DNA of 64,000 bases, from positions 1 through 64,000 of the forward strand of contig JAGVOT010000031.1 of NCBI GenBank assembly GCA_020052615.1, written 5' to 3'. A model generated the notes under the pieces. That model saw only the letters and a program-made list of their open reading frames with translations, was not told the DNA's origin and ran no database searches. The translations under genes and the position numbers were made by a program. The DNA is from Nitrospirota bacterium. Lineage in GTDB: Bacteria > Nitrospirota > UBA9217. Every line of letters begins with the position of its first letter. The first letter of the stretch is position 1. Positions 10,830-54,787 of this stretch are shown here, one piece after another.

Positions 10830-10833
10830 CAGG

Positions 10834-10944
10834 TTATTTCGCCTTCTTTGCAGCAGCCTCTGCTTTGGCCGCCTTGGTGCGCGCTTTCAGGGTCTCGGCT
10901 TTCCGCTTCCGCCTGCGTCGCAATTCTCTCTCTCTTTCACGCAC
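10834..10944 (-). CDS. Very small basic protein (36 aa), unknown function
   Basis: A GTG at 10944 lies 10 bp after AGGAG and opens a frame of 36 residues: alternating Arg/Glu at the start (REREREL), then RRRRKRK and an Ala/Lys helix. It ends 4 bp before the LpoA-like gene. The strong ribosome site and adjacency favour a real small gene. The composition suggests a nucleic-acid- or ribosome-associated peptide, but this is inference. Confidence 0.5.
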   Translation of the reverse strand: MRERERELRRRRKRKAETLKARTKAAKAEAAAKKAK

Positions 10945-11018
10945 TGGTATGGTTCTCCTTTTTACGAAAATGGCCGATGAAATCAGCCTGCACACTATAA
11001 CGAAGACGGGCAGATTTG

Positions 11019-11132
11019 TCAATCCCTGCGAATTGGAATCCCCCGGCTCCCGCCGGGGGAGGAATGCGGAATTCGCGGGAGGCCGCGTTCTTAAAGGGAG
11101 CCAGCGGCTCCTGCCGGTGGGGGCTCCGCTAA
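11019..11132. repeat. 114-bp hairpin-rich dispersed repeat, copy B
   Basis: Copy B of the 8706-8819 element, same strand orientation and nearly identical throughout. The two copies bracket the LpoA-like gene and the small basic gene. Confidence 0.85.
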
Positions 11133-11267
11133 GGATGAAAGCTTGTCGTCAGTCGGCAGCAGACGGCTCATAGTTGTCAGTCAGGGCCACAGGGGCAGCG
11201 GGAACCTCATCTTTGCGTTCAGGACATCCGACTGTCGACTATCGGCATTTTTTGACCGTTTTTTCCC

Positions 11268-11296
11268 TTGATTTATTCAGGCTGATAGATTAGATT
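11268..11296 (+). promoter_or_regulatory. Sigma-70 promoter of the tRNA-Ala gene
   Basis: TTGATT (11268-11273) and TAGATT (11291-11296) are 17 bp apart. Transcription would begin near 11303, some 17 bp before the tRNA. Confidence 0.6.
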
Positions 11297-11319
11297 ATGT
11301 CCTGTCGTTCAGCCTGTAG

Positions 11320-11395
<76 letters not shown>

Positions 11396-11418
11396 TTTCT
11401 TCATTCACAGCGTAAAGC

Positions 11419-11452
11419 AAAGCCTTGCATGATGACCATGCAAGGCTTTTTG
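11419..11452. terminator. Intrinsic terminator, possibly bidirectional
   Basis: A perfect 13-bp stem AAAGCCTTGCATG / CATGCAAGGCTTT with loop ATGAC is followed by a T run. It ends the tRNA transcript. The opposite strand also ends in a T-rich flank, so it may serve the converging permease operon ending at 11488. Confidence 0.9.
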
Positions 11453-11487
11453 TTTATCAGCGGGTGACGAGTGATTTGTGTGCCGGA

Positions 11488-12654
11488 CTACGACGTTCTG
11501 AGCGCTTCCACAATATTCATCCGCGCTGCGCGGAACGCAGGCAGCACTCCGCCGACCAGTCCCATGAAGAGCGAGAAGGCGAGCGACTGGATAATGATGT
11601 CCGGCGTGAGGGTGAAGGAGAAGGCCAGCTCCGAGAAGGTCTGCCAGTTGACGGTCGAGATGGTGAGGAACTGCAGGAACGACGATACGAAAATGCCCGC
11701 GAGACCTCCCGCGAGGCCCAGGAGCAGGGACTCCAGGAGGAACACGATCATGATGCTCCGTCTGCGGAAGCCCAGGGCCCGGAGCGTGCCGATCTCGGCG
11801 GTGCGGTTGGCCACGGCCGCGTACATGGTGATCATGGCGCCGATGACCGCGCCAAGGGAGAAGATGAACGTGAGCGTCATGCCCATGATGCCGAGGAAGG
11901 TGGCCATCATCTCGGACTGGTCGCTGTAGTACTGCGTTTCGCGCTTCGCCTCCACGGTGAGGCGCGGGTCCGCTTCGATCCGCTCCTTTACCTTCGGGAA
12001 CTCCAACCTGTTTCGCAGGCGGAAGATTACCGATGAGTAAACAGGCCGCCGGAAGGCCTGCATGAGCTGGTCCGCGTCCCCCCATATCTCCGAGCTGAAG
12101 CCCGTCGTGCCCGCGTCGAAGGTACCCACCACGGTCCAGTCCCGCATGCCGAACCGCAGTGTCTCGCCGATCCCGCCGCCCTTGAACCGCTTCGCCACGC
12201 TCTGTCCGGCGATCACTTCGGACGATCCCGGCCGGGGCATATGGCCCTCGACGAGCTTCACCTGCGGCCGCAGGGCGAGCGACGTTACGCTGACGCCCCG
12301 GATCACCACGTTCGACGGCTTGTCGGTGCCGCGCTTGGGCAGGGAGATGAGGACGACGATCTCCTTGGCCAGGAGCTGCCTGCCGTCCGTGCCGACGGCG
12401 ATCTCGGGCTGGGTCTCGATCACGGCCGCCTGGCCCCGGTCCACGCCGCTCTGGACCTCGGACTGCGAGGCCTTGCGGATCACAACGACGTTGTCCGGCG
12501 AGCCGGTCTCGACCAGTGTCTTCCTGAGCCCCGCCGCCAGCATCAGCGTTGCCGCGAAAACGAAGACCACGAGCGCCATGCCCGATGCGGTCAGCACCGT
12601 GGTGAGCCGGCGGGTCCAGAGGTTCCGGAAACTATAGGAGAATGGTATAGCCAT
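11488..12654 (-). CDS. ABC transporter permease, FtsX/MacB family (second permease)
   Basis: The 388-residue protein has the MacB-type topology: an N-terminal helix (LTTVLTASGMALVVFVFAA), a large periplasmic domain of about 230 residues, and three C-terminal helices with the FtsX core (EIGTLRALGFRRRSIMIVF). It belongs with the permease at 12866, the ATPase at 14224 and the adaptor at 14980. Two distinct permeases plus an adaptor suggest a heterodimeric envelope export or lipid-extraction complex. The cargo is unknown. Confidence 0.88.
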   Translation of the reverse strand: MAIPFSYSFRNLWTRRLTTVLTASGMALVVFVFAATLMLAAGLRKTLVETGSPDNVVVIRKASQSEVQSGVDRGQAAVIETQPEIAVGTDGRQLLAKEIVVLISLPKRGTDKPSNVVIRGVSVTSLALRPQVKLVEGHMPRPGSSEVIAGQSVAKRFKGGGIGETLRFGMRDWTVVGTFDAGTTGFSSEIWGDADQLMQAFRRPVYSSVIFRLRNRLEFPKVKERIEADPRLTVEAKRETQYYSDQSEMMATFLGIMGMTLTFIFSLGAVIGAMITMYAAVANRTAEIGTLRALGFRRRSIMIVFLLESLLLGLAGGLAGIFVSSFLQFLTISTVNWQTFSELAFSFTLTPDIIIQSLAFSLFMGLVGGVLPAFRAARMNIVEALRTS

Positions 12655-12667
12655 AAATATTAGACTA

Positions 12668-12850
12668 CAAGATCAAAACCTTTGACACTGAAGGAGCGGA
12701 TAAACAGCGGATAAAACCGGAATGAACCCGCCGTTGTCACAGGCCCGACCGCAGATCAAAACTTTTGACGCGGAAGAAAGGAAGAACGTCGGTAAAGTCG
12801 GAATAAATCCGCCGTGATCAGAGGCCTTTATCCGCTTTGATCTGTGACAA
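12668..12850. repeat. Two direct degenerate ~65-bp repeats with inverted tail
   Basis: Between the two permease genes, AGATCAAAACCTTTGACACT... (12668) and AGATCAAAACTTTTGACGCG... (12753) begin two related segments, each ending in a CCGCCGT. The stretch TTTATCCGCTTTGATCTGTGAC (about 12826-12847) is their partial inverse. No gene is visible here. Confidence 0.6.
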
Positions 12851-12865
12851 AAAATTTCAAGGTTT

Positions 12866-14023
12866 CTATGCTATTCTTCTCAATCCATCGGCGATGTTGA
12901 TGGTCGCGCCGCGCCAGGTCGGGAACACGCCGGCGACCGCCCCGACGACGAACGCTGCCAGCAGGTCGAGATAGATGGTCTCGGCCGTGATGCGGAAGAC
13001 CGGGACGAACTGGCTCAGCGTCCGGCCGATCCCCTGAGCAGCCGGGAAGGAGAGCGCCACGCCCAGGCAGCCTCCGGCCATGGCGAGGACGAGCGACTCG
13101 CCGAACACGACGCCCGCCACGTGCCATCCCCCGAAGCCCAGGGTCTTCATCGTGGCGTACTCGGCGATGCGCTCCCGGGCCGTCATGGCCATGGTGTTCG
13201 CGGCAACGACCATGATGATCACAATGACCACGTAGGACACGAGCCGGATGGCGACGATGATGGCCTCGGTCATGGACACGAAGCTCATCTGGAACGCCCG
13301 CTCGGTCTCGGTGAGCGTCTCGGCCAGGGAGTTCTTGAACATGCCGTCGACGAAGAGCGACACTTCAGCCGCCAGGTCCGGGCTGGCGAGGCCCAGGATG
13401 TAGAAGCCAACCTGGTCGGCCCGGCGCGGCGTGGTCTTTCGGACGGACTCGTTCAGGTAGTCCCAGTGGAAAAAGAACTGGGTCTCGTCGGTGGTGCGCT
13501 GGCTGCCATCGTACACGCCGCGCACCACGAACTCCCAGTCGCCGGGGAAGATGGTGCCGCGCAGCGTTACCGCGTCCCCTCTATTCCAGCCGAATCGCTC
13601 CGACAACTTCCTGCCCACGACGCAGCCCTTCCGGTCCACGAGGAACGCCTTCCGTTCCTCCGGCGTGAGCACGAATTCGGGATAAAGTTCCAGGTAGGTC
13701 TTCGGCTCCACGGCGAAGTTCGGGAAAAAGTTTTTCTCATCAATATAAACGCCGCCGAACCAGTTGCCGTATGAGACCGCAGTGACGCCGGGAACCTGGC
13801 GGATCTTCTCTTGGTACGACGCGGGCAGGAGGAAGACGAGGGAGATGGCGTTCCGCGTGACGAGCCGGGAGGCCGAGGACGACTCAACGCCGAGGTACCA
13901 GGCAGCGACGAGGGTGCGCAGGAGCCCGAAGGCCAGCACAGCGATGGCAACGCCCACGACCGTGAGCGACGACCTGAGCTTGTGTCGCATGGCGTTCCGG
14001 AAGATGAGCTTCAGCATGAACAT
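12866..14023 (-). CDS. ABC transporter permease, FtsX/MacB family (first permease)
   Basis: The start chosen is the ATG at 14023, seven bases after a GGAG, which gives 385 residues beginning MFMLKLIFRNAMRHKLRSS. The upstream extension is not signal-like. It has a short cytoplasmic helix, one membrane segment, a long periplasmic domain and three C-terminal helices with the FtsX signature (IAEYATMKTLGFGGWHVAGV). It pairs with the permease at 11488 in one operon with the ATPase and the adaptor. Confidence 0.88.
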   Translation of the reverse strand: MFMLKLIFRNAMRHKLRSSLTVVGVAIAVLAFGLLRTLVAAWYLGVESSSASRLVTRNAISLVFLLPASYQEKIRQVPGVTAVSYGNWFGGVYIDEKNFFPNFAVEPKTYLELYPEFVLTPEERKAFLVDRKGCVVGRKLSERFGWNRGDAVTLRGTIFPGDWEFVVRGVYDGSQRTTDETQFFFHWDYLNESVRKTTPRRADQVGFYILGLASPDLAAEVSLFVDGMFKNSLAETLTETERAFQMSFVSMTEAIIVAIRLVSYVVIVIIMVVAANTMAMTARERIAEYATMKTLGFGGWHVAGVVFGESLVLAMAGGCLGVALSFPAAQGIGRTLSQFVPVFRITAETIYLDLLAAFVVGAVAGVFPTWRGATINIADGLRRIA

Positions 14024-14078
14024 GCACGGGCTCCTGAATGAAACTTCACGAACCAGGAAGGGCGAAAAACCGATCTTA

Positions 14079-14210
14079 CTACAGAGGCACAGAGGGCACG
14101 GAGAACGGCAAGACGACTGGAACAAAGAGATCGAAAATGCAGATGCCTCGCTTTTTAGTAGGGTATGCTTTCTTCACTGGTTTTCTCCGTGTCTCTGTGC
14201 CTCTGTGGTG
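14079..14210. repeat. CACAGAGGCACAGAG inverted-repeat element
   Basis: Left arm CAGAGGCACAGAGGGCACGG (about 14082-14101) and right arm CCGTGTCTCTGTGCCTCTGT (about 14187-14206) are inverse copies about 27 bp long, enclosing some 75 bp without a gene. The same arm sequence recurs at 8617 and 24021-24080. It lies inside the efflux operon between ATPase and permease. Confidence 0.75.
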
Positions 14211-14223
14211 AATGGCTTAGCCG

Positions 14224-14925
14224 TTACCGGCCACTATCGCTCATCACGCCCTTTTCGAGATGGCGGACCAGATGTGCCCGCTCCGCTGCCCTGGGATCAT
14301 GAGTGACCATGATGATGGTCTTTCCGAATTCCCTGTTCAACCGGCCCATGAGTCCCAGCACGTCTTCGGCCGAGACCCGGTCGAGGTCTCCCGTGGGCTC
14401 GTCGGCCACGAGGATCGTCGGGTCCGTGACTACGGCGCGGGCGATGGCGACCCGCTGCTGCTGTCCGCCCGAGAGCTGGGAGGGGTAATGGTCCATGCGG
14501 TCCTGGAGGTTCACTACGGCAAGGGCCGTCTCGACATGTTCGCGCCGCTCCCTGCGCGAAAGCCCGGTGAGCAGGAGCGGCAGCTCCACGTTCTCGTAGG
14601 CCGTAAGCACCGGCATGAGGTTGTAGAACTGGAAGATGAAACCCACGTTGACGGCGCGCCACTGCGCGAGGTCGGTCTCGGAGAGCGACGAGATGTCCAC
14701 GCCGCCGACGGTCACCGTACCGCTATCGGCCTTGTCGATGCCGGCAAGGATGTTGAGCAATGTGCTCTTGCCCGACCCGGACGGCCCCATGAGCGCGAGG
14801 AACTCGCCTTCGCAGATCTCGAACGTGATGTTCTCGAGCACCGGGACGGTCTGGGCGCCCCGCTGGTAGGACTTGCTGAGGTCTTGTACGGAGACGATGT
14901 TCTGGCGGCAGGGTTGTTGTGTCAT
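14224..14925 (-). CDS. ABC transporter ATPase (LolD/MacB type)
   Basis: The 233-residue ATPase has Walker [10 protein letters not shown] (about 51-59), Q loop, signature [14 protein letters not shown] (about 152-165), Walker [13 protein letters not shown] and switch His in MVTHDPR. The [18 protein letters not shown] start and length fit the LolD/MacB subfamily, which works by mechanotransmission with FtsX-type permeases. It powers the neighbouring permease pair. Confidence 0.93.
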
Positions 14926-14979
14926 GGGTCAAGGGTCATGGGTCAATTGAAATGCATGGCAATTGCACTCCGCACTTCT

Positions 14980-16149
14980 CTATTGTTCCTTCCGTTTGAC
15001 GGCAGAGCCGTTCTTCAGCTTTTTCGGCGGGTTTACGACGACCTTTTCTCCCGGCTTGAGGCCGTCGTGGACCTCGATGCCGTCTCCGATCTTTTCTCCG
15101 AGGGTGACAGCAGTCTCTACGGCCTTGTCGTCCTGCACGACGAAGACGATCTGCTTTCCGTTCCGGGTGACGAGGGCCGCCGGATTCACCGCGGTCCGGG
15201 GGGATTCCTCGTCGGGTGTCATCGCCCGCTCGAGGAATGCCACGCGGGCGCTCATTTCGGGCAGGACAGCCGGGTCGCGCTCAGCGAAACGGACCTTTAC
15301 CATCACCGAGGCCTTGCTGCGGTCGGCGGTCGGTACGATCATATGCACGACGCCGCGGAACCGGCTGTCCGGCAGGGCATCGAGCTGGATCTCGCAGGGC
15401 TGGCCCGCCTTTACCTTGGAGAGGTTCGATTCCGATACGTCCACTTCGACCTGAAGGGAGGTCATGTCCGCGATGGACACGACGGCGGCCTTGGCGTTTG
15501 CCGCCGCCCCGAGGGGGGTCACGATGTCGCCGACGTCGGCGTTCTTGGTCAGCACCACCGCGTCGAAGGGCGCACGGATAAGGGTGTACTCCACGGCCAC
15601 CTGGGCCGACCGCAGGGCCGCCTCGGCGCCGGTCAAGGCGGCCTGGGCCCGCTTCTCACGCGTATCGGCCGTGTCCAGCTCGGACTGGGCGACGAATCCC
15701 TTCTCCCGCAGTTCCTTCATGCGGCCGTAGTTCTGCTGCGCATCGGTCAGTTCCGCTTTTGCACTGTTCACGGCAGCGACAGCCTGGTCGCTGGCCGCGA
15801 GGACGTCCCTGTTCTCGAGGCGCGCGATGATCTGGCCGGTGCTGACCCTGCTCCCTTCCTCCACACCGAGCCACTCGAGCCTGCCTGTCGCCTTGGATGC
15901 CACGGCAGCCTTGCGCTGGGCTACGACATACCCGCTGGCGTTCAAAAGGGTGAATGACTGGGAGGGGTAGACCCGCGCGACAATGGCGGTCTCCACCTCT
16001 ACGGCAGGATTCGCGATGAATGCGTAAATGAGGATGAGCGCGGCGAAGCTGCCGATCATGATGAGTACCCACCGGGGCAGCTTTCGTTTGCGCCGGAAGG
16101 TCGCTCCGGATTTGTCGAGTTTCAGTCTGGACAGATCGCTGTTCGTCAT
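14980..16149 (-). CDS. Periplasmic adaptor (HlyD/MacA-type membrane fusion protein)
   Basis: From the ATG at 16149 (after GAAGGAA) the product is 389 residues. It has one N-terminal anchor (WVLIMIGSFAALILIYAFI), a lipoyl-like hairpin (ASKATGRLEWLGVEEGSRVSTGQII), an alpha-helical coiled coil about 110-180 and beta-barrel domains. It would bridge the inner-membrane permeases to an outer-membrane factor; no TolC-type gene is present here. It is the first gene of the four-gene export operon. Confidence 0.9.
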   Translation of the reverse strand: MTNSDLSRLKLDKSGATFRRKRKLPRWVLIMIGSFAALILIYAFIANPAVEVETAIVARVYPSQSFTLLNASGYVVAQRKAAVASKATGRLEWLGVEEGSRVSTGQIIARLENRDVLAASDQAVAAVNSAKAELTDAQQNYGRMKELREKGFVAQSELDTADTREKRAQAALTGAEAALRSAQVAVEYTLIRAPFDAVVLTKNADVGDIVTPLGAAANAKAAVVSIADMTSLQVEVDVSESNLSKVKAGQPCEIQLDALPDSRFRGVVHMIVPTADRSKASVMVKVRFAERDPAVLPEMSARVAFLERAMTPDEESPRTAVNPAALVTRNGKQIVFVVQDDKAVETAVTLGEKIGDGIEVHDGLKPGEKVVVNPPKKLKNGSAVKRKEQ

Positions 16150-16289
16150 AGATGTTCCTTCAGGAAAGCGGTTCAATGCATGACCACTCGTTTTAATTTT
16201 CGCATAGGGTGGGGATTTGCGCAAGGGCAAAAGCGGCGGATGATGCGACGTCGGATATCGATACCGTATCAGAGGGGCGTGGCGGCCGA

Positions 16290-16940
16290 TCAGGGATTGA
16301 TCAGGTGATCGTCCGTCGAGGTCCTGCCGCCGGTCATGATGACGCGTCTGCCTTCGACCTTCAATGTGCCCTCTGCATAGAGCTGGATGGCGCGGGAGTA
16401 GACCTTGTGCTCCTGCTTCAGGATGCGTGCGGAAAGCGTGTCCTCGGTGTCACTGTCGAGGACCGGCACCACGGCCTGGATGATGATGGGGCCGGTATCC
16501 ATGCCCTCGTCCACGAAGTGCACGGTGCAACCCGAGAACTTGGCGCCATGCTCGATGGCAGCTTTCTGGACATGCAGGCCGGGGAACGACGGAAGCAGGG
16601 CGGGGTGGATGTTCATGACCCGGTTGGGGAATGCCTTGAGCAGGGTGGGCGTGATAATGCGCATGAAACCCGCCAGGCAGACGAGCTCTACGTGATGCTT
16701 CTGCAATTCCTTGACGAGCAATGCATCATAGGCATCCCGCTTTCCCTTATAGCCTGCGGCGCTTACAGGGATGGCAGGGATGTTGTGTCTCTTCGCCCGT
16801 TCGAGCGAGAAGGCGTCTGCCTGGTCGCTGATGACAACGGCAACCTGTGCGGAAAGCAAACCATTCTCAATGTTGTCGATGATGGCCTGGAGGTTGGAAC
16901 CGCGGCCGGAGACAAGAACGCCGAGCTTTATCCTTTTCAT
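16290..16940 (-). CDS. purN: Phosphoribosylglycinamide formyltransferase
   Basis: The 216-residue enzyme transfers a formyl group from 10-formyl-THF to GAR in purine synthesis. VLVSGRGSNLQAI (about 8-20) is the phosphate-binding loop, NIHPALLPSFPG contains the catalytic Asn-x-His, and FVDEGMDTGPI contains the catalytic Asp. Length is normal. It lies just downstream of purM on the same strand, the usual purMN order. Confidence 0.96.
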   Translation of the reverse strand: MKRIKLGVLVSGRGSNLQAIIDNIENGLLSAQVAVVISDQADAFSLERAKRHNIPAIPVSAAGYKGKRDAYDALLVKELQKHHVELVCLAGFMRIITPTLLKAFPNRVMNIHPALLPSFPGLHVQKAAIEHGAKFSGCTVHFVDEGMDTGPIIIQAVVPVLDSDTEDTLSARILKQEHKVYSRAIQLYAEGTLKVEGRRVIMTGGRTSTDDHLINP

Positions 16941-16997
16941 GCTTGCTCCCTGGTGTTGACCGTCTCAACCGATCGTTCGGCGAAGTTCAACATAGCT

Positions 16998-17075
16998 GGA
17001 AGGTAAGAGGGAAAGAACGTATCATGTTGGGAACTTGAGAAGCGAAGAGGGTTTTTCCTACCTTCTACCTTCATC
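16998..17075. repeat. GGAAGGTAAGAGGG array running into the purM stop
   Basis: Direct units (GGAAGGTAAGAGGGAAAG) are followed by an inverse arm (TTTCCTACCTTCTACCTTC) that overlaps the last codons of purM (GAAGGTAGAAGGTAG). It is the same unit as at 2104-2203. Confidence 0.6.
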
Positions 17076-18101
17076 TTCGAGGTACTTCACGATCTGCCTG
17101 CCCTTCACGATCTCACCGACGTGAAATGCCTTCTCGCCCAGTTTGGCTGCTTTCTTGATGACCGCTGCCACCTGTTTCTTCGGAACGGCGATGACCATGC
17201 CCAGCCCCATGTTGAAGGCGCGGTACATTTCACTGTCGTCGACGCCGGATTTTTTCTGGAGGAGCTTGAAGATGGGCGGGATGTCCCAGGTCTTTTTCCG
17301 GATGAGTGCCTGCGCGCCCTTGGGGAGCATGCGGGGGGTGTTCTCGGTGATGCCGCCGCCGGTGATGTGCGCCATGCCGCGGATGTCGAAATCCTTCATG
17401 AGCGCCATGATCGTCTTTGCGTAGATCTTCGTCGGGGTGAGCAGCACCTCGCCGAGGGTGCCCTTCCCGAGCTCCGTCAGGGTATCGTCCACGCCGTACC
17501 CGGCCCTTTCGAGCAGGACCTTCCGGACGAGCGAGTAGCCGTTGCTGTGAAGCCCCGAGGACGCAAGGCCGATGAGCTGGTCGCCGGTCTTTATCCGGGA
17601 GCCGTTGATGATGTTCTTTCGCTCCACCACGCCCACGGCGAAACCGGCGAGGTCGTATTCATCCTCGCCGTAGAACGACGGCATCTCGGCTGTCTCGCCG
17701 CCGATGAGCGCACAGCCCGCCTGTTTGCACCCGTCCGCAATGCCTTTGACGACCCCGGCATGGTCCTCGGGTTTCAGTTTTCCCGTGGCGAAGTAGTCCA
17801 GGAAAAAGAGGGGCTCTGCACCCTGAACAACAATATCGTTGACGCACATGGCGACCAGGTCGATGCCTACGGTGTCGTGCCTGTTCATCAGGAAGGCGAT
17901 CTTGAGCTTTGTTCCTACTCCGTCGGTGCCTGATACGAGAACGGGATTCTTGTACTTCTTCAGGGCGAAGAGGCCGCCGAAACCGCCGATGTCCGTCAGG
18001 ACCTCAGGGCGTAGCGTGGATTTGACGAAGGGCTTGATCTTCTGAACAAAAAGATCGCCGGCATCGATATCTACCCCTGCGTCCTTGTAGGTTATGGCCA
18101 T
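17058..18101 (-). CDS. purM: Phosphoribosylformylglycinamidine cyclo-ligase (AIR synthase)
   Basis: The 347-residue enzyme converts FGAM to AIR with ATP. Family motifs are visible: [13 protein letters not shown] (about 57-69), GGETAEMP (about 136) and [16 protein letters not shown] (about 246). Length is standard. The last residues before the stop (EGRR) are encoded by the inverted arm of the intergenic repeat. It starts the purMN unit, from the promoter at 18182-18210. Confidence 0.96.
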
Positions 18102-18181
18102 TGTTCTCCTCTAACTACTTGAAATAAATAAAAAAATAGAATATCAGTCCCGACCCTTGGTTTCTGGCCAAAATCGGTACG

Positions 18182-18210
18182 ATACTACCTGTAACCCCTC
18201 GGAATGTCAA
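18182..18210 (-). promoter_or_regulatory. Sigma-70 promoter of purMN
   Basis: Minus-strand TTGACA (18210-18205), 17-bp spacer, TAGTAT (18187-18182). The leader is about 70 nt. I see no purine riboswitch in it. Confidence 0.8.
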
Positions 18211-18257
18211 CAGGTTTTCGCTGATACAGGAAGAAGCAGGAGGCAGGGTGGTACGGT

Positions 18258-18725
18258 CTATTTCGCCACTTTTTGCTGAATGTCCCGTACGGTCGGATTG
18301 TGCAGGAGCTGGAGAAACCTGGGATTGGTCATGAGGGCTGCCGTATCGCCCGAGTTCACGGCGTTCATGATCTCCGGGTCTTCGAGGATCTTCGTGAACT
18401 GCGGGTCGTCCTTGAGCGACTGGATCATGGCCATTACATCCTTGTCGGCCATCATCTTGTCCTGGAGGGACTTGGTGTCACCGCTCGGGCCGGAAGGCGG
18501 GGATGAGAATGCACCTTGCTGACGGATGGACCTGACCTTTGCCTCCTCGAGCGTGAGTATGCCCAGGGCGCCGGTCCTGATCGTGTAAATGCCGTTGCTG
18601 AGCGAAAGGACCTCGCCGGCGATGACGCTTCCGTCGTTCAGTTCGATCTCCCTGGTCTCCCCGGCAAGGAGACGTCCGGAAAAGGGGAGCATGAGGAGCA
18701 GGGCAATGACGAGCGCGAGTTTCAT
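18258..18725 (-). CDS. Secreted protein with STI1-like repeats
   Basis: The 155-residue protein has a clean signal peptide (ALVIALLLMLPFSGRLLA-GE), then a small beta domain (REIELNDGSVIAGEVLSLSNGIYTIR resembles an SM-like barrel strand pattern). Its C-terminal half resembles the STI1/DP motifs of co-chaperones: DDPQFTKILEDPEIMNAV and NPRFLQLLHNPTVRDI. STI1 domains bind hydrophobic client segments, and a periplasmic version would be a possible chaperone. This assignment is by motif resemblance only. Confidence 0.6.
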   Translation of the reverse strand: MKLALVIALLLMLPFSGRLLAGETREIELNDGSVIAGEVLSLSNGIYTIRTGALGILTLEEAKVRSIRQQGAFSSPPSGPSGDTKSLQDKMMADKDVMAMIQSLKDDPQFTKILEDPEIMNAVNSGDTAALMTNPRFLQLLHNPTVRDIQQKVAK

Positions 18726-18732
18726 GGGAATA

Positions 18733-19746
18733 CTATAGCGTATCCTGCGCCGGATTGCAACGGCTGATCGATCCTCTGCGGACCCGGGCGTCCGGCAGGA
18801 CCTTTATTACCCGGCCGTATCTGACCTTGACCGCGTCGATATTCCGGCGCTTTTGGCCGATGGCCGTCGAGAGGTCCGCGGGATTGACCAGCAGGGTGAC
18901 TGTTCCGGCCCGATCGCCGGTGGAGAGGAGCGAACATATCTTTTCCAGGAACCGTGACGACTCTACGAGCTGCCGGAATGCAGGATGCCAGGGGCCGGCG
19001 AGGATCGTGCCGGGACGCTCCAATTCCGCCGTCGGCTGGAGTCCCACACGGATGACCTCGATACCTGCCTGCTCGAACCGCTCCACAGCTTGATGGCACA
19101 GCAGAACAGCGTCATCGAGGGGGAGGGGAGAATATCTGCCGGCGCGATAGAGCTCTGCGAGGGGGGTATCCTTGATCACCAGGGCAGGGTATATCCGGAC
19201 GAAGTCGGGCTTCAGGGAAATGACCTGAGATACCGTTTCCTGGAACGTCTCCGGCGCATCGCCCGGAAGACCGGGCATGAGCTGGAGGCCGATGGAGAAG
19301 CCCTCAGCACGGAGCAGGTTGCAGGCCTTCCGGGCATCTGCGGACGAGTGCCCCCGTCCCGAACGTTTCAGCACCTCGTCGTCCATCGACTGGACACCGA
19401 GCTCAATCGTGGAGACGCCGTACGATCCCAGGACTGCAAGAATATCGGGCGTGATGGAGTCAGGCCTGGTGGACAGTCGGATGTTCGCAACGCTGCCCGA
19501 CGTGATGAATGGCCGGACCGCCTCCAGATATGTCTTTTGCCCGGCCAGGGGCAGTGCGGTGAAGCTGCCGCCGTAGAAGGCGACCTGGACCGGCTCGGTA
19601 TCTCTGCGCGCTGAGAGGTATTGGTTTATCGAAGAAGATAAAGATGAAGCATCGGGCGGCTTGTTCTTGCCCGTGATGTTCTTCTGGTTGCAGAACACGC
19701 ACTGGTGCGGACAGCCTGCGTGGGTGATGAAGAAGGGGATGATCAT
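18733..19746 (-). CDS. Radical SAM protein (Elp3-like, COG1243 type)
   Basis: The 337-residue enzyme has the cluster motif GCPHQCVFC (Cys-x3-Cys-x2-Cys, about 12-20) near its N-terminus, SAM-binding glycine-rich AFYGGSFTALP and the downstream RLSTRPD. This is the Elp3-related radical SAM fold without an acetyltransferase domain. It sits downstream of rnc, separated by the repeat at 19761, and is probably the last gene of the long fatty-acid operon. The substrate is unknown. Confidence 0.85.
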   Translation of the reverse strand: MIIPFFITHAGCPHQCVFCNQKNITGKNKPPDASSLSSSINQYLSARRDTEPVQVAFYGGSFTALPLAGQKTYLEAVRPFITSGSVANIRLSTRPDSITPDILAVLGSYGVSTIELGVQSMDDEVLKRSGRGHSSADARKACNLLRAEGFSIGLQLMPGLPGDAPETFQETVSQVISLKPDFVRIYPALVIKDTPLAELYRAGRYSPLPLDDAVLLCHQAVERFEQAGIEVIRVGLQPTAELERPGTILAGPWHPAFRQLVESSRFLEKICSLLSTGDRAGTVTLLVNPADLSTAIGQKRRNIDAVKVRYGRVIKVLPDARVRRGSISRCNPAQDTL

Positions 19747-19760
19747 GGGGTAGCCAGGGA

Positions 19761-19918
19761 GCAGTCATGAAGCAGCCGAAAGGCAGTCAAGATGCAGTCA
19801 AGAAGCGGTCACGAGGCAATTCAGAAGATGTTTTTGGACTGTCTTACGACTGCTGTATGACGCCGCACGACTGCCTTATGACTGCTGTAAGACTGCCTTA
19901 CGACTGCAGTACGACTGA
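19761..19918. repeat. 11-bp tandem array GCAGTCAAGAN with inverted array
   Basis: Six units of 11 bp (GCAGTCATGAA, GCAGCCGAAAG, GCAGTCAAGAT, GCAGTCAAGAA...) are followed after a short T-rich centre by seven inverse units (GACTGTCTTAC, GACTGCTGTAT, GACTGCCTTAT...). The array fills the rnc to radical SAM gap and reaches the rnc stop. A second copy of the same design lies at 26195-26326. Confidence 0.85.
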
Positions 19919-46940: not shown

Positions 46941-46978
46941 CACACTATTCTCGGAATGGATAAAGGATGGGGACCTCA

Positions 46979-47791
46979 ATGGGGAAAAAGCAGGGTCAAG
47001 CAAAAGTCAAGTCACCGGCCGGCGTCCGGCCTTTTGCGAGAGAGGCTGTTTCACAGCCTCTCTCAACAGCCGCGCTGATAGGGATGTCGCTCCTTATGGT
47101 ATATGTCGGTTACATGACCGTATCGGCACACAAGAGGAACAGTATCTATCTCAATCCTGTGACGCTCTGGAAAAGCGCGGTGGAGAGCGCTCCGAACAAG
47201 CGAAGAACCCATGAGAACTACGGCCAGGCGCTCTCGACAGCCGGGCGTCTGCAGGAAGCGTTACAGCAGTTCAAGACCGTCCTTGCGCTGCCCGACGACG
47301 GAAGCGTCCCCCTGCGCGACGTCCACCGCGAGATCGGCGTGGTTTACTTCCGGCTCGGCCTTATCGAAGAATCGATAGGCGCCTGGAAAAAGGGGCTCGA
47401 GTATGCCTATATGGACCCCGGTCTTCTCAACAATATCTCAATCGCCCTGATGAAACAGCGACGGTTCGACGAAGCCTTATCCCATGCGGAAATGGCATCA
47501 CGGGCCAATCCCTATATGCCGGAGCCGGCGAACACCCTCGGTGAGATCTATATGGCGAAGGGCGACTATAAAAAGGCTGCGCAGTACTTTATGGCTTTTC
47601 TGCAATTGCGGCCTGAGGATGCGCGGGGGTACTGGAATGCCGCCCTGGCATATGAGCGGGCGGGGGAGTATGAAAAATCCCTTCGGTTCGCCAACCAGTT
47701 CCTTGCAATGGAAGGGGATCCGAGGTATCGGCAATCAGCAATGCTATTGGTGGATAGCTTGAATGACAGGATGGGCGGTGGAAAGAAGTAA
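46979..47791 (+). CDS. TPR protein with one membrane anchor (paralogue)
   Basis: The Met at 46979 is preferred over 46967 because of GGGGA just upstream; the product is 270 residues. It has one helix (LSTAALIGMSLLMVYVGYMTV), then KRNSIYLNPVTLWKSAVESAP and five to six TPR units (THENYGQALSTAGRLQEALQ and following). The anchor-linker pattern matches the protein at 44876. It ends about 120 bp before the sigma-54 promoter. TPR scaffolds often serve export or envelope assembly. Confidence 0.8.
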   Translation: MGKKQGQAKVKSPAGVRPFAREAVSQPLSTAALIGMSLLMVYVGYMTVSAHKRNSIYLNPVTLWKSAVESAPNKRRTHENYGQALSTAGRLQEALQQFKTVLALPDDGSVPLRDVHREIGVVYFRLGLIEESIGAWKKGLEYAYMDPGLLNNISIALMKQRRFDEALSHAEMASRANPYMPEPANTLGEIYMAKGDYKKAAQYFMAFLQLRPEDARGYWNAALAYERAGEYEKSLRFANQFLAMEGDPRYRQSAMLLVDSLNDRMGGGKK

Positions 47792-47908: not shown

Positions 47909-47924
47909 TGGCACACGAGTTGCA
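47909..47924 (+). promoter_or_regulatory. Sigma-54 promoter upstream of the tetraheme cytochrome
   Basis: TGGCACACGAGTTGCA matches the -24/-12 consensus (TGGCAC-N5-TTGCA) at every key base, with GG and GC exactly 10 bp apart. The predicted start is near 47935, giving a leader of about 180 nt. Sigma-54 control implies an enhancer-binding activator encoded elsewhere. The gap 47792-48117 otherwise has only AT-rich sequence and the hairpin at 48074. Confidence 0.88.
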
Positions 47925-48073
47925 AATATATTGTCCGTTGTCATAATTTATCTTCATTTTATAGGATCACCGAAATAAGCATCCATGATGAAAAGGAGGT
48001 GTATCTCAGAAGAACAGCAAATTAATATTCCTAAATCGTACGAAAAATGAAAGTAGTAATTATCGGGGGTATG

Positions 48074-48091
48074 CTGAAGCAACTGCTTCAG
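48074..48091 (+). promoter_or_regulatory. Perfect hairpin in the cytochrome leader
   Basis: CTGAAGCAACTGCTTCAG is a perfect inverted repeat about 25 nt before the start codon. It has no T tract, so it is not a terminator. It may stabilise the mRNA or bind a regulator. Confidence 0.5.
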
Positions 48092-48117
48092 ATAAAATCA
48101 GAAAAGGAGAAAAGTCG

Positions 48118-48768
48118 ATGAAGAAAATACTATTGTTAGTTGTGTGTATGGTTCTCGTTGCATCTGCTGCATTCGCCGCTACCATCGTAGGCACGAAACA
48201 TGACCTGAGCACTGCTGGTGCGGGAACGGCCCTGCCGAACACCAACCAGGAAATCTGCGTATTCTGCCATACGCCGCATAACGCAGATGCCACTCCGCTC
48301 GCTCCTCTGTGGTCGCATACGTCTACGACCGTTGCGACCTATCAAACCTACACCAATGATTTTGGCACATTGCAAGGGGCAATTGGTCAGCCCGGATCGG
48401 TTTCAAAGGCCTGCTTGAGCTGTCATGACGGCACGGTCGCGGTAGGCCAGATCGGCTCTGGTCGTTATACCGGCTTAAGAGCAGCGGGAACCTATGCCGC
48501 CGGCGCATTCATGACCGGCCTTGCTCTGTTCAGCGCAGATCTTTCAAACGACCATCCCATCGGCATTGTCTATGATTCTACCCTCGATACAGGCCTGACA
48601 GTCAATGCCGCCGGTCTTGTTGGTGGAACGCTCCCGATCTATCCTTCCGGCGCAAATTATACTGTTGAGTGCGGAAGCTGCCACAATGTGCACGATAACA
48701 CGAACGCCCCCTTCCTGAGACGGTCCAACACGGGAAGCGGTCTGTGCCTGGTCTGTCATATCAAGTAA
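48118..48768 (+). CDS. Secreted tetraheme c-type cytochrome, OmcE-like candidate
   Basis: The 216-residue protein has a signal peptide (cleavage after AFA, about residue 20) and four heme-binding motifs: CVFCH (47-51), CLSCH (99-103), CGSCH (185-189) and CLVCH (210-214). Other His residues (28, 54, 67, 146, 192) give enough distal ligands for four bis-His hemes; TKHDLS, CHTPH, NDHPIG and CHNVH are the contexts. Size, heme count and the NHL/PpiC/beta-barrel neighbours match the filament-forming OmcE group of Geobacter. Filament formation is inference. A strong ribosome site (AAAGGAG) and its own terminator suggest high expression. Confidence 0.93.
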   Translation: MKKILLLVVCMVLVASAAFAATIVGTKHDLSTAGAGTALPNTNQEICVFCHTPHNADATPLAPLWSHTSTTVATYQTYTNDFGTLQGAIGQPGSVSKACLSCHDGTVAVGQIGSGRYTGLRAAGTYAAGAFMTGLALFSADLSNDHPIGIVYDSTLDTGLTVNAAGLVGGTLPIYPSGANYTVECGSCHNVHDNTNAPFLRRSNTGSGLCLVCHIK

Positions 48769-48800
48769 TTCAAACAGGTATCTCTGATTAGTGAACGAAA

Positions 48801-48840
48801 TGAGGAGGGATGGCATCATCCCTCCTCATTTTTTATTTTA
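48801..48840 (+). terminator. Strong intrinsic terminator after the cytochrome gene
   Basis: A perfect 12-bp stem TGAGGAGGGATG / CATCCCTCCTCA with loop GCAT is followed by TTTTTTATTTT. It separates the cytochrome transcript from the NHL gene. The following gap 48841-49214 holds no gene I can support. Confidence 0.95.
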
Positions 48841-49214
48841 GGGACCTACAGCCTGCATCCTTCTGACAGGAGACAATGACTTCGACGCCGGTCTTCGAGT
48901 GCCGACCACTGCCAGTATTGCCTGATCTAATCCCTGACAAAGGCTATAAAAGAGGGCCGCATTGAGCATCGTGTCTATCTTGCTAGAGTATCTTGTTAGA
49001 GCACTGCATCTTTTTCAGGGCATGATATGTCGTTATATTTTCCACTGGAATTGTGAAAGTTTTTTCTCCCTGGTTGCCAAGCGGGAGCCATAACTGATAA
49101 ATTACAGCTCCGATACGTATTCGACGAGGGCGCTTGGAATATGAGCAACGAATAGCCTCCCTTCTTTAACCACAGATTGATCCGTATAATTGGCGTGCAA
49201 TATTGGTTGCAGCA

Positions 49215-49243
49215 TTGACAGAGAAGAGAATACATGTTATATT
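49215..49243 (+). promoter_or_regulatory. Sigma-70 promoter of the NHL-repeat gene
   Basis: TTGACA (49215-49220), 17-bp spacer, TATATT (49238-49243). The downstream genes can thus be made without sigma-54. Confidence 0.8.
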
Positions 49244-49298
49244 TCTACGCCTTGTTTTATGTGAATCCCTTTCGTTACGGAAAAAATGGAGCAATGAC

Positions 49299-50366
49299 AT
49301 GATGATAAGAACAACGTTATGCCGACTCCTGTTCCTCCTCTTGGTTGCGTTCTCCGGATGCTCCTCGCCGATTGCCAAGCAGGGGCCGATAGTATATCCT
49401 CCCCCCCCGGACGATCCCAAGATCGTTTATCTGGAAACCTATGAGGGAGAAGCGGATTTTGCCACGCCGTCGTTTCTCGACAGGCTCTTTGGGGTATCTG
49501 CACATAATAATCTTGTGCGACCCTTCGGGGTTGCAGCGGGCACGGAGAGAGTGTTCGTTGCGGATACGATCAAGGCCATGGTGTTCGTCATTGATACTGC
49601 CCGAAAGAAGGTCGACTATATCACGGAGATAGATAAGGTCAACGGCAGTCTGAAGGCGCCGCTTGATGTTGCTCTTGATGCCTCGGAAAATCTTTATATT
49701 TCCGATATCAAGCTGCGCAAGATCGTCGTCTACGATAGAGCGCTGCGGTTTGTCACCACATTCGGCAAAAAAGGCGATTTCGAGAATCCGGCAGGTATGG
49801 CAATAAACAACAGGCTCCAGCGTCTCTATGTTGCCGACAGCTATGGACATGTGGTGTATGCCTATTCCCTCAAAGGGGAGAGATTGTTCGGGTTCGGGAC
49901 CCGGGGAACAGGCGAGGGCGAGTTCAATTATCCTGCGGCCATTGCGATCGATCGTCGAAATGACAATGTCTATGTCGTCGATTCGCAGAACTTCAGGATA
50001 CAGCTGTTCAGCAAGGATGGGAAATTCATCAGCCAGTTCGGGCAGGTGGGAGATTCTCCAGGCGATTTTATCCGGCCCAAAGGGATCGGTGTAGACAGCG
50101 AAGGGAATATTTACGTGGCCGATGCCGCTTTTGACAACGTCCAGATATTCAATGAAAAGGCAAAGCTGGTCCTGCCGCTCGGCGGTATGGGCCGGGAGGC
50201 CGGCCGATTTAACATGCCCGCGGGGCTCTTCATCGATGAGCAGGACCGCATCTTCGTGGTCGACTCTCTCAACCTGAGGGTCCAGAGGTTCCAGTTCTTG
50301 AGCGAAAAGTGGATCAAGGAGCATCCGGAGGAATTCAAGAAATACGTTGTCGGAACAGAGAAATAG
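49299..50366 (+). CDS. NHL-repeat beta-propeller lipoprotein
   Basis: The ATG at 49299, seven bases after GGAG, begins a lipoprotein signal (LLFLLLVAFSGCSS, Cys21). The 355-residue protein is a six-bladed NHL propeller; repeats such as LVRPFGVAAGTERVFVADT, NPAGMAINNRLQRLYVADS and FIRPKGIGVDSEGNIYVADA are clear. NHL proteins of this kind accompany OmcS/OmcE-type cytochromes in Geobacter and may help their export or assembly (inference). Confidence 0.9.
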   Translation: MMIRTTLCRLLFLLLVAFSGCSSPIAKQGPIVYPPPPDDPKIVYLETYEGEADFATPSFLDRLFGVSAHNNLVRPFGVAAGTERVFVADTIKAMVFVIDTARKKVDYITEIDKVNGSLKAPLDVALDASENLYISDIKLRKIVVYDRALRFVTTFGKKGDFENPAGMAINNRLQRLYVADSYGHVVYAYSLKGERLFGFGTRGTGEGEFNYPAAIAIDRRNDNVYVVDSQNFRIQLFSKDGKFISQFGQVGDSPGDFIRPKGIGVDSEGNIYVADAAFDNVQIFNEKAKLVLPLGGMGREAGRFNMPAGLFIDEQDRIFVVDSLNLRVQRFQFLSEKWIKEHPEEFKKYVVGTEK

Positions 50367-50443
50367 GATCGCCACGCGACAGTTCGGCGGAGGGCAAGGG
50401 CGCCTGTTCGACCGATCGGAATCGCTGCGAGTCAGGAGAACGC

Positions 50444-51370
50444 ATGTTCCAGGTATTGCTCATGGTAGTACTGTTTTTCGCCGCCCATCCGGTCGGCGCG
50501 GATGAGGCGATCGTGGCCAAAGTGAACGGGACGGCCATAACCCTGCGCGAGCTGGAGAGCGCAACGGATCAACTGATATCCCGCGTTACCTTTCACGGAA
50601 ACCCTTCTGATGAACAACGCGATGAATATCAGAACAAGGCGCTCCAGGAGCTTATTGACCGGGAATTGCAGTATCAGCATGCCCGTGAGCTGGGCCTGAA
50701 GCCTGACAAGGAATGGGTCAGGAAGCAGGTCGAGAGCATCAGGGCGCAGTTCAAATCGAAGAAGGAATACCGGAAGTGGCTGGAACGATCGGGAATGAAC
50801 GAGGACGATCTCCTGGCGGTCGTGGAAAAAACCAATCTCGCGGCCCAGGCAATCCGGAAGAACGTAACGGATTTGGCGCTGGTGAGCGATGAAGCGCTCA
50901 AGGAGTACTATGCGAACAATCCGGAACGGTTCAAGAAGCCCGAAGTCGTCAGACTGAGCATTATCTCATCGAAGGACGAACAAAAGGCGAAGAATGCCCG
51001 TGCCTTGATCGCTGAGGGGCAGGACTTCGGGAGTGTCGCCGCAAGGATGTCGGAGGACATGTACCGCATCAAGGGCGGCGACCTCGGCCTCATTCACCGG
51101 GGCAGGATATATCCTGAGCTTGAGAAAGAAGCATTTGCCATGAAGGTAGGAGAGATCCGCGGACCGATCAAGGCGGAAGGATCATGGTACATCCTGCTGG
51201 TCCGTGAAAGGCAGCCTGAGAAGCGCATCCTGTTTGAAAGCGCGAAGGACGCACTGAAAAAGGAGCTTGAATCCAAGAGGGCGCAGGAACTCTCTGAGGT
51301 CTGGATCGCTGCGTTGCGTTCCAAGGCGACTGTTGAGGTATTCCCTGCAGCAGGCATGAAACAGGAATAA
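50444..51370 (+). CDS. Periplasmic PpiC-type peptidyl-prolyl isomerase (SurA-like)
   Basis: The ATG 50444 follows AGGAGAACGC. The 308-residue protein has a signal peptide (VLLMVVLFFAAHPVGA), a SurA-like N-terminal chaperone domain (VAKVNGTAITLRELESATDQ) and a parvulin domain about 165-260 with GQDFGSVAARMSEDMYRIKGGDLG and PIKAEGSWYILLV. It lies 77 bp after the NHL gene and probably shares its transcript. Likely task: folding the cytochrome or the beta-barrel encoded alongside. Confidence 0.92.
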   Translation: MFQVLLMVVLFFAAHPVGADEAIVAKVNGTAITLRELESATDQLISRVTFHGNPSDEQRDEYQNKALQELIDRELQYQHARELGLKPDKEWVRKQVESIRAQFKSKKEYRKWLERSGMNEDDLLAVVEKTNLAAQAIRKNVTDLALVSDEALKEYYANNPERFKKPEVVRLSIISSKDEQKAKNARALIAEGQDFGSVAARMSEDMYRIKGGDLGLIHRGRIYPELEKEAFAMKVGEIRGPIKAEGSWYILLVRERQPEKRILFESAKDALKKELESKRAQELSEVWIAALRSKATVEVFPAAGMKQE

Positions 51371-51498
51371 GCTTCACCAGTGCAGCCAAGGTCGATGATC
51401 GCTGTCCTTGACCGTGGCCGTATGTTCCTAAAATTTAAGATTTTCTATCGTTGTTCTCTTCCATGTTCTCTCCCGCGTTGTGTATTATTACTCACCTC

Positions 51499-51514
51499 TG
51501 AGTGTAAACACTCA
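51499..51514. promoter_or_regulatory. 16-bp perfect palindrome, candidate operator
   Basis: TGAGTGTAAACACTCA lies about 20 bp before a TTGACA (51536-51541) in an AT-rich leader upstream of the beta-barrel gene. No good -10 box at standard spacing is visible. A dimeric regulator site is plausible. Confidence 0.5.
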
Positions 51515-51629
51515 ATTCACGAATAATTAATTTTATTGACAATATATACCATTGATATCATTGATATATTTATGCAAGTTGCCGAGTCGCACCGGGTATA
51601 AATATTGCATAATTATTTGCACTATATTT

Positions 51630-53612
51630 ATGTCTTCAAGCCTATATTTTTCAATTATATCCGTGACTAAGCGAAATAATAATTTAGTGCTAAAGCGTTT
51701 TCCCGGGACCGGCACAGGACCCCGGGTGCTCGCTCTTGTCCTTTTTCTGATCATGGCATTCGGACTGTCTTCCGATGTTCATGCTCAGTACGGAGTATCC
51801 GGCGTCGTCTCGTTCAGCTATGAGGACTACTCAACCAAGATAGGAAGCCAGAAACAATCGTCTCAAACTTTTTCTCAGATATACGCACTGTCACTGAGCA
51901 ACTATATCTGGGACCGCCGCTTCATGACCTTTTCCGCGGGCGTCGGTTACACGGATCGGACAAAATTGAACGATGCAGGGGCGGATACCCAGACTTTGAC
52001 CTATGGGCTCAGTACCACGTTCTTCCCCGGAAGAAGCATCAGCATGGATCTCTTCGGCAACAAGGCGATCAACAAGATCGAGAGCCGATCGAATCTCGCC
52101 GGGTACAATGTGACATCGACCGCTTATGGCGCTACCATGATGCTGTCGCTGAACACGCTGAACAAAAATGGCAACCGGAACAACAACAACAATAATAACA
52201 ATAACGGCTTCAACGGCAATTGGGGAAGGAGGGCGGTGTTGCCGGATATTGTGCTCTCCCACATCCATACGGATAGCGAGTCGCAGAATGCATCATTCCC
52301 GATCCGGGAATCACGGGACGACTCAAAGGTCCTCCTCACTTATCGTCCGAGCACGCGGTTCGACATGAGCCTCGACGGCGAACTGGAACAATACAAAAAC
52401 GAATTAACCGGCTATTTCTATGATTCGGCAACAGCGGGAATGAGGGCGAACGCCGCTCTTTCTCCGCGGTCCGCTCTCTCGATGTATGGTCGCTACACAG
52501 ATCGGACCATGAGCATCAATTCGCTCGGCGGTGATCCTGAACTGATCACTTATAGCTACGGCATGACGCTGGACACGGTCGAAAACGCACGCTTGTCCCA
52601 CAAATACCAATTCGATCAGAGCGCACAGAAATCAGACAGCATGGAAGTAACGGCGGACCGCGCGCGAGCCGAAGTGTTTTACATGATGACTCCGGAGCTG
52701 CAGGTGCACGGCGCCCTTGTGTATGGGCTTGCAGAGAACAGGTCGCCGGCAACGGCAGTCACATCCGCTCAGACGACGCAGCAGAAGAGCGGGGCATTGC
52801 AGGCCGGCGCATCTTACAATAAGACTTATACGCCGGATTTCCTCGGGCCGTTTGTGTTCGATACGTCCTATGCCTTTGATTATGGATTTTCTGAGATATC
52901 GTCAACAGATCCCAGCATCGATCAGGGGAGAGGACGCTTTTACGTGAATTCCGGAGGTCTGGGCTTCACGAGCCGGGGCTGGGACAAAGACACCTTTTCT
53001 CTTGGATATGGTGTTACGAGCAAGCGGGACCATTCACCGGCGAATAATGATTATATGAGTCAAAATTTCAACTTAAACGTGAACACCAGGCGCCTGCCGA
53101 AGACCACGATTGCGGCCAGCGCATATTACGCGGTGCATGAGAGCACCAGCGCATTTTCCATCCAAAGCATAGCCACGAACGAGTCAAACCAGCAGCGAAG
53201 GAGCGTACGATACAATATTAACGCATCTCACGCGACCACGCAGTCCTTGACGCTCAACGCCGGAGCCACACGGGGGCTAACCACGTCCAACACGGTATAT
53301 ACGCTCGCATCGCTGAGCACTCCTCAGAGTTCCGTTTACTTCGACGAGACAACGGTATTTGCCGGGGCGCAGTTCAACTATAATTTTACGCGCAACGTAT
53401 CGTTCAGGGCAAACGCGCAGGAGGAGTTCAGAAAGACCGACAATTTGGTCACAAAGTCCAATACGCGGACCCATTCCGCGAACGTGTACATTGACTATCG
53501 GATAAGAATGATCTTGCTGAATCTTGAATATCGCTGGAAGCAGGATGTACCTGAAAACGGGACGACCGTCACTCAACAATACTTTGTTGCACTGATCACC
53601 AGGCCTTTCTAG
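51630..53612 (+). CDS. Large outer-membrane beta-barrel protein
   Basis: The start is unclear: ATG 51630 is given, and a GTG at 51687 would yield a neater signal peptide (VLALVLFLIMAFGLSSDVHA). The mature part (about 620 residues) shows alternating amphipathic strands (GVVSFSYEDYSTKIG, FMTFSAGVGYTDRTKL, RFDMSLDGELEQYKNEL) and ends in ALITRPF, a terminal aromatic as needed by the BAM complex. A run of nine Asn near residues 190-200 is encoded by AAC/AAT triplets. It is probably the porin-like conduit or secretion barrel of the cytochrome locus (inference). Confidence 0.85.
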   Translation: MSSSLYFSIISVTKRNNNLVLKRFPGTGTGPRVLALVLFLIMAFGLSSDVHAQYGVSGVVSFSYEDYSTKIGSQKQSSQTFSQIYALSLSNYIWDRRFMTFSAGVGYTDRTKLNDAGADTQTLTYGLSTTFFPGRSISMDLFGNKAINKIESRSNLAGYNVTSTAYGATMMLSLNTLNKNGNRNNNNNNNNNGFNGNWGRRAVLPDIVLSHIHTDSESQNASFPIRESRDDSKVLLTYRPSTRFDMSLDGELEQYKNELTGYFYDSATAGMRANAALSPRSALSMYGRYTDRTMSINSLGGDPELITYSYGMTLDTVENARLSHKYQFDQSAQKSDSMEVTADRARAEVFYMMTPELQVHGALVYGLAENRSPATAVTSAQTTQQKSGALQAGASYNKTYTPDFLGPFVFDTSYAFDYGFSEISSTDPSIDQGRGRFYVNSGGLGFTSRGWDKDTFSLGYGVTSKRDHSPANNDYMSQNFNLNVNTRRLPKTTIAASAYYAVHESTSAFSIQSIATNESNQQRRSVRYNINASHATTQSLTLNAGATRGLTTSNTVYTLASLSTPQSSVYFDETTVFAGAQFNYNFTRNVSFRANAQEEFRKTDNLVTKSNTRTHSANVYIDYRIRMILLNLEYRWKQDVPENGTTVTQQYFVALITRPF

Positions 53613-53995: not shown

Positions 53996-54787
53996 ATGCT
54001 TCTCGCAAAAAAAATCATTGTTGTGATGCCCGCATACAACGCCGCAAGCACCTTGCGGCAGACCTACCTCGAACTGCCCCACGATCTTGTCGACGAAGTG
54101 ATCCTGGTCGATGATGCGTCTGCCGACGGGACAGCGCGCCTGGCGGCCGAACTCGGCATACGGACGATCGTCCATGCAGAGAATAAAGGATACGGCGCCA
54201 ACCAGAAGACCTGCTACCGGGAAGCGCTCCGCCATGGTGCGGATATCGTGGTGATGGTGCATCCGGACTACCAGTACTCGCCGAGTCTTGTCACGGCGAT
54301 GGCCTCCATGATCGTATCGGGACACTATGATGTCGTACTGGGATCGCGCATCCTGGGCGGAGGGGCCTTGAAGGGCGGGATGCCGCTCTACAAATACATC
54401 GCCAACCGGTTCCTGACGTTCTTCGAGAACCTCTTCCTCGGCGTGAAACTGTCGGAGTATCATACCGGATTCCGGGCCTTTACCCGGGAGGTCATTGAGA
54501 CGCTGCCCCTGGAGGAGAACTCCGATGATTTCGTGTTCGACAACGAGATGCTTGCCCAAGCCGTCTATTTCGGCTTCACGATCGGCGAGATCAGCTGTCC
54601 GGCGAAGTATTTCGAGGAAGCATCGTCCATCAATTTCAGCCGCAGCGTGAAGTATGGTTTCGGCGTGCTGGGAACGACCATGAAATATGTTCTGCAGAAA
54701 GGGGGTCTGGTAAATTCCGTATTGTTCAGCAGGCAGGGGAAAAAGGTATCCGGGACGTCCGCGGCAGCTCCCGAAAACAGGGGATAG
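53996..54787 (+). CDS. Family 2 glycosyltransferase (polyprenyl-phosphate mannose synthase-like)
   Basis: The start at ATG 53996 ([17 protein letters not shown]) follows AGGGG; the product is 263 residues. The GT-A motifs are [27 protein letters not shown] and the metal-binding [10 protein letters not shown]. The helical tail without a long membrane domain suits a polyprenyl-phosphate sugar transferase. It presumably supplies lipid-linked sugar for envelope glycans. Confidence 0.9.

Follow-up and report, generated by a model that had tools for sequence, protein, structure and literature searches.

An OmcE-family tetraheme cytochrome gene beside a gene for a predicted MtrB-like barrel in a Nitrospirota genome: probably part of a Uet-type electron-transfer module

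As outlined in a pangenome study, the Uet complex comprises an extracellular tetraheme cytochrome (UetA), a PpiC isomerase (UetB), a barrel (UetC), triheme cytochromes (UetDEG), NHL proteins (UetHI) and an undecaheme cytochrome (UetJ) (PMC10734462); in the accounts drawn on here, the genes uetABCDEFGHIJ are placed in Ca. Tenderia electrophaga and Gallionella (PMC10734462, PMC12575090). OmcE of Geobacter sulfurreducens is a known cytochrome filament (PDB 7TFS), and its homologues are reported, as summarized in one recent review, across bacteria and archaea (PMC12307469, citing Baquero 2023, Gu 2023 and Portela 2024). The same review states that the export, anchoring and electron loading of cytochrome nanowires are unsolved (PMC12307469). 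In studies of ANME-partner sulfate reducers, every wire is proposed to operate together with a conduit (PMC12246660, PMC10553843). OmcE homologues and Uet have each been published already; no paper linking the two was found in a literature search, whose reach did not extend to the original OmcE, ECN and Uet papers.

The locus described here belongs to a member of the Nitrospirota and lies in a stretch of 64,000 nucleotides, hereafter the window. An earlier note on this DNA had recognized four consecutive genes, for a secreted 216-residue tetraheme cytochrome of OmcE type, an NHL protein, a PpiC isomerase and a barrel, and had placed the system outside Geobacter. It was correct in all of this: the four genes were confirmed on the + strand inside 47909-53612, together with two signals around the first of them.

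47909..47924, + strand: sigma-54 type -24/-12 promoter element TGGCACACGAGTTGCA, the sole 11/11 consensus match in the 64-kb window
48118..48768, + strand: OmcE-family tetraheme c-type cytochrome, 216 aa, secreted, UetA-like (phmmer, ligand histidines, tree)
48797..48832, + strand: intrinsic terminator directly 3' of the cytochrome gene (16-pair stem with T tail)
49302..50366, + strand: NHL six-bladed propeller, predicted lipoprotein, 354 aa (Pfam NHL, 9.8e-23)
50444..51370, + strand: SurA-N/PpiC peptidyl-prolyl isomerase, secreted, 308 aa, UetB-like (Rotamase_2, 2.8e-21; SurA_N_3, 7e-17)
51687..53612, + strand: predicted outer-membrane barrel, 28 strands, MtrB-like fold, about 641 aa, UetC-like (AF2, Foldseek)

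With moderate confidence, we read this locus as the outer-membrane and extracellular half of a Uet-type electron-transfer module around an OmcE-family cytochrome, that is, a conduit plus a wire. The tetraheme gene is the only multiheme gene in the window, where the Rfam matches consist of one tRNA, with no riboswitch upstream of the locus. A TPR gene directly upstream (46967-47791) was rejected as a fifth member and is regarded as flank, because it is also present in the relatives G008, G009 and G012, which have no cassette. Directly after the barrel gene stands a family 2 glycosyltransferase gene (53996-54787). OmcE filaments reportedly carry heavy glycosylation, and at two loci (L012 and L053) Geobacter-type omcE likewise has glycosyltransferase-like genes downstream.

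Judged by its sequence, the cytochrome is a true OmcE homologue outside Geobacter. A phmmer search of all PDB chains matched OmcE (7tfs, E 1.4e-37, residues 3-216) and 9yuq (218 aa, 16 chains, E 3.5e-33), with no other credible match; homology to OmcE extends over the full length at 46% identity. The protein has a signal peptide and four CXXCH motifs, and the codon-level pattern of this motif occurs four times in the cytochrome gene alone, against 2.7 occurrences expected in the whole 64 kb. Matches to ERGIC-53 lectins (E 0.02-0.13) were taken as chance.

Heme ligands were compared in an alignment of 97 tetraheme relatives and 57 undecaheme N-domains. Seven of the eight ligand histidines, counting those of the four CXXCH motifs and the distal ones, are invariant in both sets (97/97 and 57/57), and H54 is kept in 93/97 tetrahemes and 56/57 undecaheme N-domains. 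The earlier note had counted four spare histidines for bis-His ligation; H28, H54, H146 and H192 are conserved as it supposed, but the protein has five non-CXXCH histidines in total. The fifth, H67, is conserved in 55/97 tetrahemes and is Arg in OmcE, and was rejected as a heme ligand. Since H28, H54, H146 and H192 are conserved together with the CXXCH histidines, the bis-His set of OmcE is complete in this cytochrome. The AF2 monomer model (53 homologues) reached a pLDDT of 51, had no Foldseek match in the PDB and was too poor for use, possibly since the hemes that hold the fold together are invisible to AF2.

Sigma-54 sites scoring at least 9 were found in 47 of 104 regions upstream of OmcE-like tetraheme genes, compared with 2 of 104 on the opposite strand. 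The terminator in the window (dG about -24) lies between the cytochrome gene and the other three; terminator-like signals follow 24 of 86 tetraheme genes versus 7 of 156 NHL genes. Both a sigma-54 site and a terminator are also present at L012 and L053. With so strong a terminator after the cytochrome, the four genes need not be one operon, and the tetraheme subunit, having its own promoter and terminator, is probably made in excess over the NHL, PpiC and barrel proteins.

The best start of the barrel gene is a GTG at 51687 (stop at 53612), and its product carries a signal peptide and a C-terminal Phe and belongs to no Pfam or NCBIfam family. An AF2 model built with 11 homologues (mean pLDDT 83.7) contains 28 beta strands and no plug domain. 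Its best Foldseek match in the PDB is MtrB of the Mtr complex (6r2q_B, E 1.7e-11), followed by TonB-dependent receptors (4e-7). The model and MtrB share 11% identity and a TM-score of 0.47; because such TM-scores are moderate, 'MtrB-like' here refers to a large open barrel of this general kind and implies no close relationship. MtrB itself has 26 strands. From geometry only, the lumen of a 28-strand barrel is estimated at about 37-44 Å, wide enough in principle for a wire. Homologues with E <= 1e-8 occur in 8 of the 14 genomes of the family, its own included; across phyla, barrels were matched by iterated HMM at about 10-22% identity, helped by their fixed position. A poly-Asn stretch (window 52176-52216) falls in a low-confidence loop of the barrel and is also found in the orthologous barrel of L111.

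The NHL protein has the lipobox FSGC and groups with the NHL proteins of L107 and L111 (support 97), both likewise placed after tetraheme genes. NHL proteins beside undecahemes and those beside tetrahemes form largely separate lineages.

When a collection of genomes from 84,980 species was scanned with the alignment of the family, at least 563 relatives were obtained, of which the best 80 alone span many phyla. Gene order was compared in 79 loci that were kept, plus the window, and a recurrent order emerged in many phyla: OmcE tetraheme, NHL, pentaheme or PpiC, barrel, NHL, undecaheme. In a set enlarged with relatives to 98 loci, a few of which represent the same contig twice, a barrel gene accompanies the OmcE-like genes in 61 and an undecaheme gene in 60, and tetraheme, NHL, barrel and undecaheme stand together in 45. 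By comparison, random control regions from the same and related genomes contained NHL in 1/19, PpiC in 1/19 and a barrel in 0/19. The NHL neighbour on which the earlier note relied is borne out, being found within 1.5 kb on the same strand for 80 of 103 tetrahemes; the whole NHL-PpiC-barrel neighbourhood, whose lack in homologues the note took as a sign against its idea, is missing from part of the family and kept in the rest. The Geobacter precedent of the note is not supported by the two Geobacter-type omcE loci examined: L012 and L053 have NHL and glycosyltransferase-like genes, with octahemes in L012, but neither PpiC nor a barrel within 8 kb of omcE.

The undecaheme gene of the recurrent order and its NHL gene are absent from the window. 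They are unlinked to it on another contig of the same genome, C85, where an undecaheme-type gene (208046-210199; L094:12047-14200) adjoins a second NHL gene. The encoded protein has an OmcE-like N-domain and ten CXXCH motifs plus a CX17CH, a possible eleventh heme, and it has orthologues in six family members. The CX17CH and a C-terminal CX11CH recall the expanded heme motif reported for OmcZ. In the family tree the 57 undecaheme N-domains all lie on one side of a branch (one change, versus a shuffled mean of 46), though the support of that branch, 79, is not strong. In a genome from another family of the phylum (G026), the order four-heme OmcE-like cytochrome, NHL, PpiC, barrel, NHL, undecaheme is contiguous. 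Because the full set is contiguous there, and because the undecaheme-type gene and an NHL gene lie on C85 here, the window is best read as a putative half of a split Uet-type module. Small c7 proteins are plentiful in this genome, and both c7 and triheme-like proteins are encoded on other contigs.

Within the family, an orthologous tetraheme-NHL-PpiC-barrel cassette occurs in two members of another genus (G004 and G010), and the four genes keep the same order in G005 with an insertion of several kb. In G001, G003 and G007 the NHL/PpiC/barrel or PpiC/barrel part reaches a contig end. G001 and G003 have the barrel without the undecaheme of the window's type; G011 has that undecaheme without the barrel. 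The congener G001 has the tetraheme gene and the NHL-PpiC-barrel genes at the ends of two contigs (L097 and L135, on C86 and C14), probably because assembly interrupted a single locus; the tetraheme of G001 is 47% identical to that of the window and groups with Geobacter OmcE. L025 and L097 contain identical sequence, which identifies G001 as Nitrospiria bacterium Hainich-H41-bin277-1; L099 and L043 in the same way connect a further relative with a named Nitrospirae genome, and the host of the window is accordingly placed in the Nitrospirota.

Likeness to Uet was judged by gene type and position from the published description and from a locus close to the published order (L074). L074 reads tetraheme, PpiC, barrel-like, triheme, triheme, three non-heme proteins, triheme, NHL. 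Its tetraheme is 37% identical to that of the window, and the barrel profile matches its UetC position too weakly to count as proof (E 8.6e-4 over 95 columns, probability 24%). The window shares with Uet the tetraheme, the NHL protein and an adjacent PpiC and barrel corresponding to UetB and UetC, and the same genome has the undecaheme-type gene with its own NHL gene. Unlike Uet, the window cluster lacks the trihemes UetDEG and the undecaheme UetJ, and its NHL gene lies between the tetraheme and PpiC genes. As possible counterparts of the two NHL proteins UetHI, one NHL gene is in the window and one beside the undecaheme on C85.

The other described systems resemble the locus in part. OmcE (7TFS) shares full-length homology, four CXXCH motifs and four conserved distal histidines with the cytochrome, and the NHL neighbour, sigma-54 site and terminator recur at the Geobacter-type loci; the locus differs in its Nitrospirota host and in the adjacent PpiC and predicted MtrB-like barrel. 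OmcE is a known filament, and the window protein a candidate for one. MtrCAB (PDB 6R2Q) would have in common with the locus a large plug-less barrel, MtrB being the best structural match of the model; it differs in the 28 strands predicted here, in the low identity and TM-score, and in the lack of adjacent MtrA or MtrC. The OetABI and 26-/16-heme clusters of ANME-partner sulfate reducers likewise combine a barrel or large multihemes with PPIase and beta-propeller genes, but their cytochromes are different ones and an OmcE-type tetraheme is not mentioned (PMC12246660, PMC10553843).

In the module that we favour, PpiC may help fold the barrel, the cytochrome or both in the periplasm, and the barrel would form an insulated outer-membrane passage that holds a cytochrome path. 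Small periplasmic c7 cytochromes could feed or drain the chain of conduit and tetraheme. The undecaheme would sit on the conduit as a surface hub, where its OmcE-like domain may offer the same interface as an OmcE subunit. The tetraheme would act as an extracellular relay and would probably polymerise, giving an OmcE-like wire that docks on the conduit, with the two lineages of NHL lipoproteins possibly serving as partner-specific scaffolds.

It is rather unlikely that the conduit is the same while the tetraheme remains a monomeric extracellular relay or terminal Uet cytochrome, its OmcE-like fold being simply a tetraheme module in wide use. The account of Uet used here says of UetA only that it is a tetraheme located outside the cell, and the OmcE-like domain forms the N-terminal part of undecahemes, which are presumably not filaments. 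Against a monomer, all four distal histidines are conserved, as in OmcE, where a neighbouring subunit supplies the second ligand of one heme; the cytochrome's own promoter and terminator, common to Geobacter-type omcE, point the same way, though neither observation is proof of a filament.

In the earlier note the locus was read as an OmcE nanowire plus genes dedicated to its export and folding; on this view the barrel would secrete the cytochrome subunits, with help from NHL and PpiC. This agrees with the true OmcE homology, with the cytochrome gene's own promoter and terminator, such as one would expect if the subunit is produced in surplus, with the conserved NHL neighbour, and with nanowire secretion being unsolved in the literature (PMC12307469). 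It is nevertheless the weaker reading of the barrel, and we think it unlikely: the gene set corresponds to that of Uet, the barrel travels with the undecaheme cytochrome in most loci, and the two Geobacter-type omcE genes do without PpiC and barrel nearby. Among known folds the barrel model comes closest to MtrB, which sheathes a conduit, and not to a secretin or an usher; this favours a conduit over a dedicated exporter.

The barrel gene of the window has no neighbour coding for a pentaheme, a triheme or a periplasmic cytochrome like MtrA. Because no other cytochrome is encoded beside the barrel in the family, it may also be proposed that the wire, or a short tetraheme stack, is seated in the MtrB-like barrel itself or passes through it, with the OmcE-like domain of the undecaheme as a cap or adaptor to other hemes; we regard this as an unlikely variant. 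Finally, it is highly improbable that the tetraheme is a periplasmic carrier of the c3/c7 class beside unrelated envelope genes, as its small size, signal peptide and weak c7 Pfam score might suggest, for its full-length match is OmcE and not c3, and its neighbourhood is conserved across phyla far above the control.

If the Uet-type tetraheme is an OmcE-type wire subunit, as in the conduit-plus-wire module, then many phyla encode a wire side by side with its outer-membrane conduit, and the undecaheme of the conduit has a domain that matches the wire in its ligand set. Anchoring would therefore become a concrete two-protein docking question. As far as the literature was searched, four points appear to be new: that the Uet-type tetraheme belongs to the OmcE family, that the undecaheme begins with an OmcE-like domain, that the barrel is predicted to fold like MtrB, and that this Nitrospirota family has a split arrangement.

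Two further arrangements of OmcE-like genes were observed. The same genome has a third such gene (L096, G000:C23:26000-45900, at 10065-19901), a 285-aa frame with four hemes, followed by two genes whose products are an NHL/FG-GAP protein of 945 aa and a protein of 1694 aa that has 31 CXXCH motifs; this gene order is repeated in G001, G004 and G005 (L098, L112 and L110). A Desulfarculales genome carries four OmcE-like genes in tandem (L017:4235-8603), three with five CXXCH motifs and one with four.
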